In this document: in pieces, positions 18,372 to 25,223 of the stretch
Numbering within the stretch: position 1 is the stretch's first letter
How the letters are laid out: each line of letters begins with the position of its first letter
Assembly: GCA_028532765.1 (NCBI GenBank)
Contig: JAQQAR010000019.1
Coordinates: 1 to 32,127 of the forward strand
Direction of reading: 5' to 3'
Origin: Sphaerochaetaceae bacterium
Lineage (GTDB): Bacteria > Spirochaetota > Spirochaetia > Sphaerochaetales > Sphaerochaetaceae
DNA: 32,127 bases
Notes under the pieces: generated by a model
Told to the model about the DNA's origin: nothing
What the model saw: the letters and a program-made list of their open reading frames with translations, nothing else
Databases searched by the model: none
Position numbers and translations under genes: made by a program

Positions 18372-20006
18372 ATGGACAACAAGATGTTCTGTTTCCAATG
18401 TCAGGAAACCGCCCGCAATTTCGGATGTACGCAAGTAGGGGTATGTGGCAAACAGCCAGAGACAGCAAACCTGCAGGATCTTTTAATCTATGTAACCAAA
18501 GGGCTGAGCCAAGTTGCAACCAGACTCCGCGGGGAGAACAAGTCGGTCAGTAAGGATATCAACCACATTGTCACCTACAATCTTTTCACCACCATTACCA
18601 ATGCAAACTTTGACGATGAAAAGGTAACCGAGAGAATTCTCCTTACCATCGAGGCAAAGAAGGGTTTACTTGCAGAACTTTCCAGTAAGGAAGGGTTGAG
18701 TGAAGCCGCTCTCTATGACAACACCGATACTGCTTCCTATGAAGAGTTTTCCAAGACTGTTGGTGTACTTGCTGAGAGCAATGAAGATGTCCGCTCCTTG
18801 AAGGAGTTGATCATCTATGGCTTGAAGGGAGTGAGCGCTTATACCAAGCATGCAAACAACCTGATCAAGGAAAATGAAGAGCTTGATGCCTTCATCCAGA
18901 GTGCCCTGAATGACCTGCTTGAAGAGAAGAGTGTTGATGAGCTTGTTGCCCTTACCCTGAAGACAGGGGAATGGGGTGTTGCAGGCATGGCACTGCTCGA
19001 TGGAGCAAATACCGGCACCTATGGTAACCCTGAGATGACAAAGGTAAAGATTGGTGTTGGCAAGAACCCTGGCATCCTTATCAGCGGTCACGACCTCAGG
19101 GACCTCGAGATGTTGCTTGAGCAGACCCAGGGTACTGGAGTTGATGTATACACTCACTCTGAGATGCTTCCTGCCCACTACTATCCCGCATTCAAGAAGT
19201 ATCCTAACTTCTATGGCAACTATGGTAACGCATGGTGGATGCAGAAGAAGGAGTTTGAATCCTTCAACGGTCCCATCTTGATGACCACCAACTGTATCGT
19301 ACCTCCAGCTGAATCATACAAGAGCCGCCTCTATACCACCGGAGCAACCGGTTTCCCGGGCTGCAAGCATATTGAAGGTGGAATCGGGGATAAGAAGGAC
19401 TTCAGTGAGATCATTGAGCTTGCAAAGACCTGTCCTGCTCCAACGGAAATCGAATCCGGAGAGATCATTGGAGGCTTTGCCCACGAGCAGGTCTTCGCTC
19501 TTGCGGACAAGGTAGTGGAAGCCGTGAAGAGTGGTGCGATCAAGAAGTTCGTGGTCATGGGTGGTTGTGATGGCCGTTCCAAGAGTAGGGACTACTACAC
19601 TGAGTTTGCCAAGAACCTGCCCAAGGATACGGTAATCCTGACCGCTGGTTGTGCAAAGTATCGCTATAATAAGCTGAACCTTGGTGATATCGGTGGAATT
19701 CCCCGCGTCCTTGATGCTGGTCAGTGCAACGACTCCTACTCCTTGGCACTTATTGCCTTGAAGTTGAAGGAAGTCTTTGGCTTGGATGACATTAATGATC
19801 TTCCTATCGCCTACAACATTGCCTGGTATGAGCAGAAAGCTGTTATTGTACTGCTTGCCTTGCTTTACCTTGGTGTGAAAAACATCCACCTCGGGCCTAC
19901 ATTGCCTGCATTCCTTTCACCGAATGTAGCCAGCGTATTGGTTGAGAACTTCGGAATTGCCGGAATCTCATCCGTTGAGGATGACCTTGCAGAATTAATC
20001 GGCTAA
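18372..20006 (+). CDS. hcp: Hybrid cluster protein (hydroxylamine/NO reductase), class I
   Basis: This 544-residue cytoplasmic protein contains both iron-sulfur centres of Hcp. The N-terminal cubane ligands are C7, C10, C19 and C25 (C-x2-C-x8-C-x5-C), the spacing of strict-anaerobe class I enzymes. The hybrid cluster ligands are all present by motif: His240, Glu264, Cys308, Cys399, Cys427, Cys452 and Glu487. Family members reduce hydroxylamine in vitro and act as NO reductases protecting against nitrosative stress in vivo. No Hcr reductase gene is adjacent; electrons must come from elsewhere. The start is ATG 18372 behind AAGGAG, in an operon with the cupin gene. A hairpin follows the stop. 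Confidence 0.97.
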
Positions 20007-20070: not shown

Positions 20071-20105
20071 AAACAAAGGCTGCCTCTCTTTGGAGAAAGG
20101 CAGCC
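20071..20105 (-). terminator. Rho-independent terminator of the RND operon
   Basis: Read on the minus strand, GGCTGCCT and AGGCAGCC (20105-20098 and 20085-20078) form an 8-bp stem followed by TTTGTTT (20077-20071). It lies 25 bases after the outer-membrane protein stop, closing the operon that runs toward hcp. Confidence 0.8.
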
Positions 20106-20130: not shown

Positions 20131-21384
20131 CTAGAAGTACCAGCGAAGTGCAGCCCAGGCCATGGAGTTATCCTGGTAGACTCCGAAAGTACCCTCTTCA
20201 TCACCAACAAATAACTCCACGCCGCCTTCAAGCAAGACTCCATCTCCAAAGTTATAGGAGAGGGATGGCCTTATCAGGGCATTGGCAGGTTCTAGTTCCA
20301 CATAGGTGAAGAGTTTTGCAGTCAGGCGTTCATCAAGGAATGTATCCTGAACCCTGAAGGTGAGGGTGTGGGCAAACTCCTTGATGGGTCTCATCTGACT
20401 CACCAATGAATCATTATGGTCATGGGTGCAGGTAAGCAGATACTGACTCGACCACTGGGCTCCAAGCATATTCCAATCCAGTCCCACTAACGTCTGTATC
20501 TGGTTATGGTACTCGATTGAGATGGGTGGATTACTTGTGGTATCAACGCTATTCAACGGTTTTTCGAGAGCTAGAGCAGCCTCTCCCCTGAGCACCACAC
20601 TTCCCAGGGTTGTATTGAAGCTACCTCCAACAAATCCGTACCGCTCATAACCTTGAGATATTTCTCTTGAGGTCGGAGTAGGAGCAGTTACCCCTGTAAC
20701 CAAGGGTTCATCGGTGAACACATATCCTACGTTTACCTTCCAGCTTATGGTATTTCCAAACCTACCCAACGAGAGGAATGCCTCACTATTTTCCAGGCTG
20801 GACTCTGGCATACTGGGATCATTGATCGTAGCAGTAACTGTTGGAGGAAACGGCATGGAAGGGGTCTGTGCCCACATTGAATCCTGGGAAGGAAGCGTGG
20901 ATGGGATAAAATGCGTCACCCAGATTCCCTGCAGGGTGTAATCTCCTGCATAATAATCGATCTTGATGGCCGGAACTGCCTTACGGATCTCCGTAAAGTC
21001 AGCAAGGATGAACGAGCGCATATCCCTCGGGCTAACCAGGTCGGTAATGAATGCTCCCTCAGCTTCACCCCAGATGACCTTCTGCTTACCGACCCTGAGG
21101 TCTGCATCCTGCAGATAGAAATCGAAGTAGGCTTCCTGAAGATTTAATTCAACACCTTCGTTGGGTGTGCTGTACGCTACCGGGTGCAGGGTGAGTTTTC
21201 CCAGGTCCCCATAGTAGTCATACTTAAGGTCAGCTGTTATCTCATGCACTGGCATGTCAGCTTGGTCAAATCGAAGGGTGACATAGTCTCTAACCATGCC
21301 GCTGAATACCCCGTCCCCGGCTACTGCCGGTGACAGGACTGCAATGAGTAAAATACTTGCTAGTATGATGTTTTTCCGCTTCAT
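20131..21384 (-). CDS. Outer-membrane beta-barrel protein of the RND export unit (DUF1302-like)
   Basis: This 417-residue protein has a signal peptide (MKRKN, hydrophobic core, AVAGD) and a long run of alternating strands ending in RWYF, the aromatic terminus of outer-membrane barrels. Segments such as LQEAYFDFYL, RVGKQKVIWGEAEG and LVSPRDMRSF resemble the DUF1302-type barrels encoded beside MMPL/RND exporters in proteobacteria. That link is by pattern and context only. It starts 3 bases after the LolA-like gene stop, with GGAG overlapping that gene's end, so expression is coupled. A terminator follows. It probably provides the outer-membrane component or acceptor of the export route. Confidence 0.8.
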   Translation of the reverse strand: MKRKNIILASILLIAVLSPAVAGDGVFSGMVRDYVTLRFDQADMPVHEITADLKYDYYGDLGKLTLHPVAYSTPNEGVELNLQEAYFDFYLQDADLRVGKQKVIWGEAEGAFITDLVSPRDMRSFILADFTEIRKAVPAIKIDYYAGDYTLQGIWVTHFIPSTLPSQDSMWAQTPSMPFPPTVTATINDPSMPESSLENSEAFLSLGRFGNTISWKVNVGYVFTDEPLVTGVTAPTPTSREISQGYERYGFVGGSFNTTLGSVVLRGEAALALEKPLNSVDTTSNPPISIEYHNQIQTLVGLDWNMLGAQWSSQYLLTCTHDHNDSLVSQMRPIKEFAHTLTFRVQDTFLDERLTAKLFTYVELEPANALIRPSLSYNFGDGVLLEGGVELFVGDEEGTFGVYQDNSMAWAALRWYF

Positions 21385-21387
21385 TAC

Positions 21388-22176
21388 TTATCTCCTTGGT
21401 CCAATTTTCATCTGTCGTTCACTAAAGAAGCTGTCATTAAAGTCCTGATTGAATTCAACCTCTTCCATTTGAATCCTGGTGGAGGTGTTCTCCTCAAGGT
21501 TTCTCATCGTCATATCAGTGATGACATAGATGCCATCAATTGCTTTATATTCGTCGATAGTGAGTGTCTTTGCGAGCGTTCCATCGGGGAGATAGAACTC
21601 TTTTTTCAGGCCGAACCACTCTCCATCTACAACCCACGAGAGAGTTCTTGGATAGTCCTCATCGCCTTTTGCAACGCTCTCAACCACCAAGGTGGAAACT
21701 CCCTGAACAGTCTCCTTCCTCAGTACCTTGTGTGTATCCAGTTCAGGATGTCGGCTTCCCATATCATCGTAGGTAAAGTCAGAACCCATGAACGAGTCGT
21801 TCTTGCTGTCACTTGCGATACGCTTCACTCTCCTGAGCGCTGGCAGGTAGATGTACTGGTCATCACTTCTGCCATCCTCATAACTGAAGCTGAGGAAGCT
21901 GGTATTTCTTACATCACTGGGGGAGAGGAAGAACATAAGCTTGCTCTCAACCCCATTCTTATCCATTCGGTACTGGGCAATTGTTCGTTCCCTGACCGAT
22001 CCTCTTGCATTGGTAATGGTCATGATCAGATTGGCACTCATGGTATCCCCGCTATCACGGTTATAGACTTCCCACATTACCTCGCTGCCACTTGGGGTGG
22101 CTGCGCTCACGGTAAGTAAGGCGAATGACAAGAGCAGTGCAAGCACACTGATTCGTTTGGTTGTACGTGTGTTCAT
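21388..22176 (-). CDS. Periplasmic LolA-like lipid/lipoprotein carrier of the RND unit
   Basis: This 262-residue protein has an N-terminal signal peptide (RTTKR, hydrophobic core, VSAA) without a lipobox cysteine. The mature region matches the 'outer membrane lipoprotein-sorting protein' LolA-like family found with RND exporters: MWEVYNRDSGDTMSANLIM, then a YIYLPALRRVKRI segment and a GSDFTYDDM segment are typical. Such proteins have an open barrel holding a hydrophobic ligand. It lies between the RND gene (18-bp gap) and the outer-membrane barrel (3-bp gap). A shuttle of lipid or lipid-like cargo from the permease to the outer membrane is the natural inference. The start at ATG 22176 has AAGGAG upstream. 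Confidence 0.87.
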   Translation of the reverse strand: MNTRTTKRISVLALLLSFALLTVSAATPSGSEVMWEVYNRDSGDTMSANLIMTITNARGSVRERTIAQYRMDKNGVESKLMFFLSPSDVRNTSFLSFSYEDGRSDDQYIYLPALRRVKRIASDSKNDSFMGSDFTYDDMGSRHPELDTHKVLRKETVQGVSTLVVESVAKGDEDYPRTLSWVVDGEWFGLKKEFYLPDGTLAKTLTIDEYKAIDGIYVITDMTMRNLEENTSTRIQMEEVEFNQDFNDSFFSERQMKIGPRR

Positions 22177-22194
22177 AAGTAACTCCTTGTATTG

Positions 22195-24480
22195 TTATCG
22201 TATGCGTTTTGGAAGAAACACATGTTTTTTCTCGAGGTAGTGAACAAGCACCACCAGTATGGTAAGCGTGCCCAAGGCACTGGTTGCCATGTTCAGGACG
22301 ATGAGAGCACCAACCTGCCTGTTGGGAGGGAAGACGCTGAACATCAGGATTGCAAAACCACCCATGACGGCGATTGCATTGAAGATGATTGCCCTCCCTG
22401 TATGCCTCAGTGTCGATCTCGTGGCTTGTTCAAGTGAAGATCCCCCGAGGCGTTCATTTGTATAGTGCTCCAGGAAATGGATGGCATAGTCCACCCCAAT
22501 ACCGATGGCAATGCTGGTTATCAAGGCAGTTGCGCTGCTGAGCGGGATTCCAAGCAGTCCCATTACTCCAAAGTTCACGATAGCCGTGATGGCAATGGGA
22601 ACGGTTCCCACGATGCCGATAGACAGATTCCTGAACAAGAGAGCCAGAAGAATGATGATAATTACAAAGCTTAGGGCCAAGCTGATAATCTGTCCTTCCA
22701 GCAAGAGTTCGCTGAATATGAAGGCCTTGTATCCACTGCCGGCATACGTCACTTCAATTTCATGTTCGGCGAAGACTGGGCGATAGGAATCGACCACAGC
22801 AAGGATATCCTTGAGAACAGCAGAGCTGTCACTCTTCAACTGAACAGTAATATTTGCACTGGTATACTCGTAGTCGACGACCTTTTCCAAGGATTCGGGA
22901 TCACCGGAGAATTCGTAGAGCAGGAGATACTGACTTACCAGTTCCTGGGAGTCCGGGATGCTGTAACTTCCCTCCTCATGTTCCATCATTACTTGGTTCA
23001 TCTGCTTGATGAAAGTTGCAAGGGAGAGGGTTTTTGCTACAATTGGATCTTTCTCGATATCATCCTGCATGGAATCCATCGCCTGCAGTACCTCTGGGTG
23101 CTTGAACAGATCTGTCTCGTCCCCGCTCAGGATGATATTCAGGGTGGAGGTACCTCCAAACTTGCTGTTTACGAATTGGTCGGTCTTTGCGATCGTACTG
23201 TCTTCCTCAAAGTTTGCCAGGAAGCTTGTATCAATCCATACCATGCTTGTTCCCCAGATTCCGATGATCAGCACTGCAAGGGAGATGAAAACAACCATCC
23301 TCGGACGACGTAGCAGGAGTGCTTGGAGCTTGTCCGACAGAGTCCCTTTTCCCTGTTGTATCTCAAGATCAGCCTTCGCTCTCTTGTACTTGGGTTTGCC
23401 CAGAAGGTAGAGGGAAGCTGGGAAAAGCAACAAGGCAAGCAACATCTCAGAGAGGACACCGATGGCTGCAAACAACCCAAAATACCGGACAGGAAGTACC
23501 TGGCTGCTCATCAGGGCAACAAATCCGATAGCTGTGGTTATTGCGGTCATGATAATCGGCCTTACCATCTGTTTCAGGGAATGGGTAGCCAGTTCTCCTT
23601 TGGAAAGGTCAGGGTAGGAGAGCATCAGGTGGTGAATGGTATTGTGCATATGAATACCATAGGCAACCCCGATGGCGATCAACATGACAGGAATCATGGT
23701 ATCAACGGCATAGATGGGTATGTTCAACAAGGTCATCAAACCAAAGGAGACCAGTGTCCCGAAAAGCACAATGACCATATTCAGTACTGTATCGCGCAGT
23801 GAACGCAACAAGAGATAGAGCAGGATGATCATGGTGATGATGACCAAGGGGAACATGATCGCCATGTCCTTTGGTCCGAGCTCTGCTAGAGCCCCTTCAA
23901 CCACTGGGCGTCCTGCAACCATGAGGTTCTCAGGTCCTTCCCACTGCCCAGCCCAAGTCTGCAGTGTCTCTGCCTCTATGTCACTGTTCAGTTCAGCAAT
24001 GATCAGTGTAGCCGTCCCATCCTTACTGACATTCCTCCCATAGATCATGGGGTTGGCTTCTACCTCGGCCTGCATCTGTGAGATTGCCGACTCGCTCGTT
24101 TTCCCAGAGTAGAATGGTTCAACCTCAAGGAATCCATCATCACTCTTGATGTTGTCTGCAGTCGTGAGACTGGTTATGGATTCCACTGCATCGAACTCTT
24201 CCTGGAGTGCTACCGTGATGGCATCAATCTTCTGGATGGTACCAGGGTTGTAGATGCCCTCAGGGTGTTCAACTACGATGAGTATTGCATCCTTGATCCC
24301 AAAAAGGCTCTCTGCCTCATCACTGGACACAAAGGCCGGGTGGGTCTTTGGCATATACTCATCAAGGTCTGTCTCCAGTACTGCATTGTTTGCAATCGAG
24401 ATGACAAAGATAGCTGATAGAACCAATACCGCGATCAAGAGAAGAAATGGGCGTTTAGCAAATGATGTGAAAAATCGCAT
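22195..24480 (-). CDS. RND/MMPL-family exporter permease
   Basis: This 761-residue inner-membrane protein has the duplicated RND plan: one helix, a large periplasmic loop (about 32-200), five helices, then the same again with a loop at about 410-580. Paired motifs MLIAIGVAYGIHMHN and SIAIGIGVDYAIHFLEHY occur in the fourth helix of each half; an Asp is present in the second only. Its size and lack of an adjacent membrane-fusion protein place it with MMPL/COG1033 exporters rather than AcrB-type drug pumps. Such proteins use the proton gradient to move lipids or hydrophobic compounds. It is the first gene of a three-gene unit with a TetR-type box just upstream. The start is ATG 24480 behind GGAGG. 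Confidence 0.92.
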   Translation of the reverse strand: MRFFTSFAKRPFLLLIAVLVLSAIFVISIANNAVLETDLDEYMPKTHPAFVSSDEAESLFGIKDAILIVVEHPEGIYNPGTIQKIDAITVALQEEFDAVESITSLTTADNIKSDDGFLEVEPFYSGKTSESAISQMQAEVEANPMIYGRNVSKDGTATLIIAELNSDIEAETLQTWAGQWEGPENLMVAGRPVVEGALAELGPKDMAIMFPLVIITMIILLYLLLRSLRDTVLNMVIVLFGTLVSFGLMTLLNIPIYAVDTMIPVMLIAIGVAYGIHMHNTIHHLMLSYPDLSKGELATHSLKQMVRPIIMTAITTAIGFVALMSSQVLPVRYFGLFAAIGVLSEMLLALLLFPASLYLLGKPKYKRAKADLEIQQGKGTLSDKLQALLLRRPRMVVFISLAVLIIGIWGTSMVWIDTSFLANFEEDSTIAKTDQFVNSKFGGTSTLNIILSGDETDLFKHPEVLQAMDSMQDDIEKDPIVAKTLSLATFIKQMNQVMMEHEEGSYSIPDSQELVSQYLLLYEFSGDPESLEKVVDYEYTSANITVQLKSDSSAVLKDILAVVDSYRPVFAEHEIEVTYAGSGYKAFIFSELLLEGQIISLALSFVIIIILLALLFRNLSIGIVGTVPIAITAIVNFGVMGLLGIPLSSATALITSIAIGIGVDYAIHFLEHYTNERLGGSSLEQATRSTLRHTGRAIIFNAIAVMGGFAILMFSVFPPNRQVGALIVLNMATSALGTLTILVVLVHYLEKKHVFLPKRIR

Positions 24481-24493
24481 ATATCCTCCGATA

Positions 24494-24509
24494 GTTAACG
24501 TTTACTTAC
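24494..24509 (-). promoter_or_regulatory. TetR-type box ahead of the RND gene
   Basis: On the plus strand, GTTAACGTTTACTTAC differs at only two of 16 positions from the box at 25152-25167 ahead of tetR. It lies 13 bases from the RND ATG, adjoining the ribosome site, so a bound repressor would block transcription start. An imperfect dyad, GTTA..TTAC, is visible. Confidence 0.7.
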
Positions 24510-24552
24510 ATATAATTAAAAATTGTCCCTTTTATGGGTTTGAACTGTAAAG

Positions 24553-25134
24553 CTATTGCAAAGAGAAGAGCGTACTTAGGCTAGCGGTGATAGGTCCTGC
24601 CTGTTCACTTAGTTTTGATGGTTCATCCTGCATATGCCAACGCGAGACATAGAGGCGGATGGTACCGAAGGTGATCATTGCAAGCTCAACAGGGTTTATA
24701 TCATTCCTGCACCGCTTCTCTGCAATGGCCTCTGCATAGAATGCAGAGAGTCTCTTCAGGTTTCCCTGTAGCAATGCATCCAATTGTGGCTTGAGTTGGA
24801 TATCAACATTGAATGTCTCCTCAGCGAACAGCATAAGGGTAAATGCTGCATTATGTTCCAAAAGTGTGAACAAGTCATGTACAAACTTGGTGAGCGCTTC
24901 CCTGTAGGAATCTTTTGATGCGAGCAATGTAGCGAACTGTGGCGTAAGTAAGCTATCAAGATGTACAAGGATTGCTTGCAATAACTCATGTTTGCTTGCA
25001 AAATGCCGGTATACAGCTGCTTCGCTGACACCGATGGCGGATGCCACATTCCGGATGGTCAGCTTCTGGATACCATCATAGGCTGTTACGCGGATTGCTG
25101 CTTCAACCAATTCAATTTGTCGTTTTGTCTGCAT
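24553..25134 (-). CDS. TetR-family transcriptional repressor
   Basis: This 193-residue regulator has a typical TetR N-terminal helix-turn-helix (KLTIRNVASAIGVSEAAVY followed by RHFASKHELL) and a helical ligand-binding domain. I use ATG 25134, since the in-frame TTG upstream overlaps the GGAGG ribosome site. It is followed after 72 bp by the RND gene on the same strand. Near-identical 16-bp boxes precede both genes, so autoregulation and local control of the export unit are likely. The ligand may be a substrate of the exporter, such as a fatty or hydrophobic compound, but nothing in the sequence identifies it. Confidence 0.92.
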   Translation of the reverse strand: MQTKRQIELVEAAIRVTAYDGIQKLTIRNVASAIGVSEAAVYRHFASKHELLQAILVHLDSLLTPQFATLLASKDSYREALTKFVHDLFTLLEHNAAFTLMLFAEETFNVDIQLKPQLDALLQGNLKRLSAFYAEAIAEKRCRNDINPVELAMITFGTIRLYVSRWHMQDEPSKLSEQAGPITASLSTLFSLQ

Positions 25135-25151
25135 CGGTCCCTCCAAAGTAA

Positions 25152-25167
25152 GTTAACGATTACTAAC
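25152..25167 (-). promoter_or_regulatory. TetR-type box ahead of tetR
   Basis: On the plus strand, GTTAACGATTACTAAC has dyad ends GTTA/TAAC. It is 14/16 identical to the box ahead of the RND gene and lies 17 bases from the tetR ATG. A minus-strand TATACG (25172-25167) and TTGTCA (25193-25188), 15 bases apart, may be the promoter it overlaps. Confidence 0.7.
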
Positions 25168-25223
25168 GTATACAAAGTTCTCTCCTTTGACAAGAGGATT
25201 GTAGGTTTTTTTTCAAGCTTTGT

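Follow-up and report, generated by a model that had tools for sequence, protein, structure and literature searches.

Among the closest studied relatives of the locus described here is AmeABCD of Castellaniella defragrans, the loss of which lowers monoterpene tolerance (PMC6394551). An RND permease of the HAE3 lineage is co-expressed in this system with two further proteins, one in the outer membrane (DUF1302) and one in the periplasm (LolA superfamily, DUF1329), and no AcrA-type adaptor is involved (PMC6394551). AmeC (COG4447) is its fourth part, and the genes are ordered barrel–LolA–AmeC–RND (PMC6394551). In Pseudomonas putida, PP_0765 (DUF1302), PP_0766 (DUF1329), PP_2018 and PP_2019 are required for growth on Tween 20, and a substrate transport system was predicted by the authors (PMC10866462). 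These genes belong to the same families as those of the present locus but are divided between two loci, and the available part of that source reports neither a TetR cassette nor operator boxes. A third related gene set is the operon PG1178–PG1181 of Porphyromonas gingivalis, which encodes a TetR protein, an MMPL transporter, a LolA-like protein of solved structure (9tp6) and a hypothetical protein (PMC10434189, PMC10470040, PMC13103446). This operon is among the most heme-/iron-responsive operons of that organism (PMC10470040, PMC10434189). Based on family and operon, PG1179 is inferred to be LolA3.

The cassette of the Sphaerochaetaceae bacterium differed from AmeABCD in its gene order, tetR–RND–LolA–barrel, in the lack of AmeC, and in the presence of a dedicated TetR with two predicted operators. 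The intergenic spaces of 18 and 3 bp are too short to hold an AmeC gene between RND, lolA and barrel. Overall, the cassette was interpreted, with a probability of about 0.68, as a self-regulated envelope transport operon, in which a TetR with two palindromes would control a transport route, more likely export, that operates without an adaptor.

Gene Layout of the Locus

The window, i.e., the whole stretch of 32,127 nucleotides that was analysed, contained the following features of the system.

20078..20105, minus strand: intrinsic terminator ending the operon, with a 12-pair stem and a T-rich tail; recognised as a hairpin after the barrel gene
20131..21384, minus strand: outer-membrane beta-barrel of 417 aa that matches DUF1302 and has an aromatic residue at its C-terminus; profile matches and model
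21388..22176, minus strand: LolA-like periplasmic protein, 262 aa, PF17131 and DUF1329, predicted fold fitting P. gingivalis LolA3; profile matches and model
22195..24480, minus strand: MMPL/HAE3-like RND permease of 761 aa with two MMPL halves and the TM10 motif GVDYAIH, whose Asp664 is invariant; profile matches and alignment
24491..24508, minus strand: predicted operator 2, TAAGTAAACGTTAACTAT, with 10 bp between it and the start codon of RND; conservation and genus alignment
24553..25134, minus strand: tetR, TetR-family repressor, 193 aa, TetR_N and a YsiA/FadR-like C-terminal region (TetR_C_4); profile matches and orthologues
25149..25166, minus strand: predicted operator 1, TTAGTAATCGTTAACTTA, overlapping the −10 element of the tetR promoter; conservation and genus alignment
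25165..25170, minus strand: putative tetR −10 element TACGTT, kept within the genus; from conservation and spacing
25188..25193, minus strand: putative tetR −35 element TTGTCA (CTTGcCA as the consensus of the genus), separated from the −10 element by 17 bp; from conservation and spacing

The four genes lay on the minus strand in the order tetR–RND–lolA–barrel, with intergenic gaps of 72, 18 and 3 bp. The gene calls, strand, gaps and closing terminator given in the sequence-only reading were all borne out by the open reading frames of the window and by the hairpin at 20105–20078. The tetR gene was taken to start at the ATG at 25134; an alternative open reading frame with a TTG start extends to 25146, and this start is unlikely because relatives have the same ATG with a ribosome-binding site directly ahead of it. 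Searches of the window for Rfam families and tRNA genes gave no matches.

A hybrid-cluster-protein (Prismane) gene at 18372–20006 was convergent with the operon and adjoins it in most genus-mates. A divergent GH88 gene was considered as a member of the system and was dropped, since it is not beside the cassette in L047, L049 and L052. A second, distant pair of RND and LolA-like genes was located elsewhere in the same genome, at the end of contig C50 (L061:142-3263); the pair was divergent from a pyruvate-kinase-like gene, and no tetR was seen adjoining it.

RND Permease, LolA-Like Protein, and Barrel

The RND permease matched MMPL (PF03176) with 125.8 bits against a cut-off of 20.5. HAE3 (TIGR00921) was its best-scoring NCBIfam family, although the score of 266.9 bits was below the cut-off of 351.9 bits. 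The AcrB-type ACR_tran profile was likewise missed (25.1 bits against a cut-off of 28), and no AcrA-type adaptor gene was present in the operon. The classical tripartite RND pump (AcrAB-TolC) has an AcrB-type permease and an AcrA-type adaptor, whereas the cassette matches it in neither. Asp664 of the second half was invariant, whereas the corresponding site in the first half, residues 273–274 of the TM4 motif, was Ala-Tyr in 47 relatives and Ala-Asp in 56, out of 105. A one-sided proton relay is possible in this permease.

The LolA-like protein matched DUF1329 with 39.6 bits (cut-off 23.1) and LolA_like with 202 bits. None of the 21 aligned LolA-like proteins matched the canonical LolA family, which we take to be PF03548, at E ≤ 0.01. 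The predicted structure had a pLDDT of 88, and its fold was nearly identical to that of P. gingivalis LolA3 (PGN_0947), whose crystal structure fitted 234 residues at 1.2 Å with a Z score of 33.8. The next nearest structures were the DUF1329 protein 4z48 and then 3bk5, and true LolA and LolB were much farther away. The barrel protein scored 35.2 bits for DUF1302 (cut-off 23.2), a family that was also matched by all 18 orthologues; its model was moderate (pLDDT 79) and corresponded to a porin- or AlgE-type barrel. The sequence-only reading had called these two proteins LolA-like and barrel, with structure prediction as a check, and a LolA fold and a porin/AlgE-type barrel were indeed obtained. 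Its view of a gene set that covers the inner membrane, periplasm and outer membrane without an AcrA-type adaptor also agreed with the profile matches and the operon content.

TetR Protein and Predicted Operators

The TetR protein matched TetR_N (PF00440) with 48.4 bits against a cut-off of 24, and the same domain was matched by all 12 orthologues. The C-terminal family TetR_C_4/YsiA was matched by 10 of the 12. The best solved relatives were Bacillus FadR structures (PDB 3whb, 1vi0, 5gp9), and Bacillus FadR (YsiA), a TetR regulator that responds to acyl-CoA, shares this C-terminal family with the cassette TetR. The DNA-recognition helices of the two are nevertheless unlike each other, and the cassette TetR is far under the FadR family cut-off (equivalog NF053878, 56.4 bits against 200).

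Two matched boxes just upstream of the tetR and RND start codons had been proposed from the sequence alone. The two 16-mers were present at 25152–25167 and 24494–24509 and were identical at 14 of 16 positions. Comparison with relatives indicated that the real register of the boxes is an imperfect palindrome of 18 bp, with the minus-strand sequences TTAGTAATCGTTAACTTA at box 1 and TAAGTAAACGTTAACTAT at box 2. The palindromes end 14 bp (tetR) and 10 bp (RND) ahead of the start codons, and their consensus is TTAGTTAACGTTAACTAA-like within the genus and TTAGTGAATATTAACTAA-like outside it. Inside the window alone, the match of the pair was only mildly unusual in a shuffle test, which carries little force because its pattern was derived from the same two sites. 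Across the 3.16-Mb genome, AGTWAWCGTTAACTDA was matched with one mismatch or none at the cassette locus only; with a looser pattern, isolated one-mismatch sites also occurred apart from the cassette. A lone box-like site, AGGGATCGTTAACTCA (G000 contig C87:86679-86694), recurs outside the cassette in several genomes of the genus.

Box 1 overlapped the −10 element of the tetR promoter, and the −35 (CTTGcCA) and −10 (TACGTT) elements were kept across the genus with a spacing of 17 bp. Box 2 lay immediately in front of the RND Shine-Dalgarno sequence. In this genus, the DNA that precedes box 2 and the RND gene contained no evident sigma-70-like promoter, and operator 2 may therefore work as a roadblock rather than at a promoter.

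Conservation Within the Genus

In the genus (26 genomes), the sites occurred as a pair at the cassette. Both boxes recurred upstream of the tetR and RND orthologues, and the DNA surrounding them was little conserved past close species. The pair was absent from the six genus-mates without an RND orthologue (G004, G011, G015, G017, G022 and G023), most of which are incomplete bins, with only G017 looking complete. Computation established the gene set and the predicted operators, and showed that the latter are conserved and confined to the locus. The TetR is predicted to act locally as the repressor of the entire unit, i.e., of its own gene and of the transport genes. This assignment is well supported, because the boxes are conserved, are found only at the locus and are missing as a pair from genus-mates without the genes. 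The local repression by TetR suggested in the sequence-only reading was thus upheld as a predicted regulon with two matched operators, conserved and confined to the locus.

Distribution Across Phyla

A protein-based scan of 84,980 species genomes gave 80 loci, 4 of which duplicate genomes already among the relatives. Most of the records were metagenome bins, and phyla represented by a single bin therefore count weakly. The genes tetR–RND–lolA–barrel were found on one strand and in the same order in almost every readable locus among the 80, and a tetR orthologue occupied the same position in nearly all cassettes. Both boxes were present in 51 of the 70 loci in which both upstream regions were readable, and at least one box in 67. 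The loci with both boxes came from Bacteroidota, Spirochaetota, Ignavibacteriota, Calditrichota, Cloacimonadota, Fidelibacterota, Latescibacterota, Chlorobiota, Aminicenantes and one Pseudomonadota bin. Among 91 cassettes, 72 had two boxes that both outscored 99% of shuffled sequences. A matrix was also trained on the genus of the window alone and tested on other phyla to avoid circularity, with the 99% shuffle level taken as a pass. According to this matrix, 61 of 115 held-out promoter regions from other phyla passed, versus 6 of 443 control regions (1–3%), made up of 1 in 73 lolA regions, 2 in 65 barrel regions and 3 in 305 random ones.

The four proteins diverged in step (Mantel r 0.71–0.92), a correlation that can arise from co-inheritance and from shared host ancestry alike. 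The phyla were intermixed in the RND tree, which is compatible with some transfer and is no proof of it. The cassette and its two boxes recur in about ten named phyla and have been studied almost nowhere; no paper describing this cassette in Sphaerochaeta was found. The conservation of boxes and gene order on which the sequence-only reading depended was hence found across the genus and in other phyla, with the boxes kept at both tetR and RND. Its emphasis on a spirochaete did not hold, since the same genes and operators occur in Bacteroidota, Ignavibacteriota, Cloacimonadota, Calditrichota and others. This emphasis is further weakened by the related gene sets studied in Castellaniella (PMC6394551) and Pseudomonas (PMC10866462).

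Extra genes lay between the four in some Bacteroidota and Cloacimonadota cassettes. An additional outer-membrane protein with an HHSNGQ...NY motif was frequent in Bacteroidota-type cassettes (L134:8033-9013, L117:7693-8712 and 13 other loci); its match to outer-membrane phospholipase A1 was weak and under the Pfam cut-off. In some Cloacimonadota/Fidelibacterota-like cassettes (L115:6784-7886, L100:3386-4452), RND and lolA were separated by two genes of the ArsP_1 permease type. A small cupin gene was recurrent, at L167:4048-4386 and some ten further loci, and was often placed after tetR and before RND. In one Neomarinimicrobiota genome, the cassette was opposite a divergent second tetR–lolA–barrel set, with a hemerythrin gene in between (L147:233-3062).

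The relatives of PG1178–PG1181 formed a sister group. Their LolA proteins were 65–80% identical to LolA3, whereas their RND proteins were distant (E about 1e-110 to 1e-125 versus 1e-290), and a TetR was distant or was not found. The palindromic box was present in both cassettes of the present kind that were compared and in none of 12 relatives of the PG1178–PG1181 operon, P. gingivalis itself not being among them. Moreover, two Bacteroidales genomes hold both kinds of operon, and the boxes were at the cassette kind only. Transfer of the heme/iron response of PG1178–PG1181 to the cassette was considered and dropped, since that operon belongs to a sister group without the box, and the response is a lead at most for the cassette.

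Proposed Mechanism and Alternative Explanations

In the proposed mechanism, TetR would bind the palindrome over its own promoter and repress itself, and its binding ahead of the RND gene would repress the pump, carrier and barrel. An intracellular hydrophobic or acyl-type ligand on the C-terminal domain of TetR may then cause derepression. From the protein families we infer a transport route from RND to the LolA-like protein to the barrel. The permease would extract an amphiphile from the inner membrane at the expense of the proton gradient, via the Asp of TM10; the LolA-like protein would ferry the molecule through the periplasm in a greasy groove; and the DUF1302 barrel would hand it to or through the outer membrane. 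An outward direction is weakly favoured by analogy with AmeABCD. An acyl-lipid or fatty-acid-like cargo is weakly suggested by three weak, independent hints, namely the FadR-like sensor, the phospholipase-like gene in Bacteroidota cassettes and the Tween 20 phenotype of the P. putida DUF1302/DUF1329 genes (PMC10866462). A broader proposal is tentative and rather doubtful in its full extent: a widely shared, self-regulated export system for acyl lipids or fatty acids in non-proteobacterial diderms, which would sense an intracellular acyl-CoA-like ligand, deliver lipid to the outer membrane or the outside without an adaptor, and carry a repressor–operator pair recognisable across about ten phyla.

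The same parts could work in the opposite direction, with the barrel, LolA-like carrier and RND taking exogenous lipids or fatty acids inward, or returning outer-membrane lipids, upon induction by acyl-CoA. FadR-like regulators control fatty-acid use, and the cassette TetR is nearest to FadR among solved structures. The phospholipase-like gene of the Bacteroidota cassettes, itself a weak match, points the same way, as does the requirement of P. putida DUF1302/DUF1329 genes on Tween 20, which is an uptake-type phenotype (PMC10866462). This import reading is nonetheless unlikely: the scanned neighbouring proteins of the window included no fatty-acid degradation enzyme, and a TetR gene adjoining an RND gene is the usual arrangement for efflux. 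Furthermore, the HAE3/MMPL pumps studied so far have been described as moving their cargo outward, and AmeABCD protects against its own substrate (PMC6394551).

A second, specialised branch of lipoprotein sorting, in which the LolA-like protein carries lipoproteins and the RND permease stands in place of LolCDE, would suit the Pfam name and the LolA fold. It was considered very improbable, given that canonical LolA was matched by none of the aligned members, that LolA3, the closest solved protein, binds LolB just weakly and was proposed by its authors to have a separate function (PMC13103446), and that gliding and amylase secretion were unaffected by the lolA3 deletion in F. johnsoniae (PMC11885536). 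The chance that the boxes serve a different regulator, or are an element of promoter structure, was also judged slight. Box 2, with no clear promoter nearby in the genus, would fit such a role, but in the two Bacteroidales genomes with both operon kinds the boxes go together with the cassette and its kind of TetR, and the pair is missing in genus-mates without the cassette.

Biological Significance

The cassette is a compact, testable unit of four genes and two predicted operators with a self-confined regulon. It occurs in many phyla and bears on the movement of lipids and oily compounds in diderms outside Proteobacteria. The conserved predicted operator is a simple DNA signature that parts this group from look-alikes such as the heme-responsive P. 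gingivalis operon, and the TetR protein provides a handle for finding the cargo.
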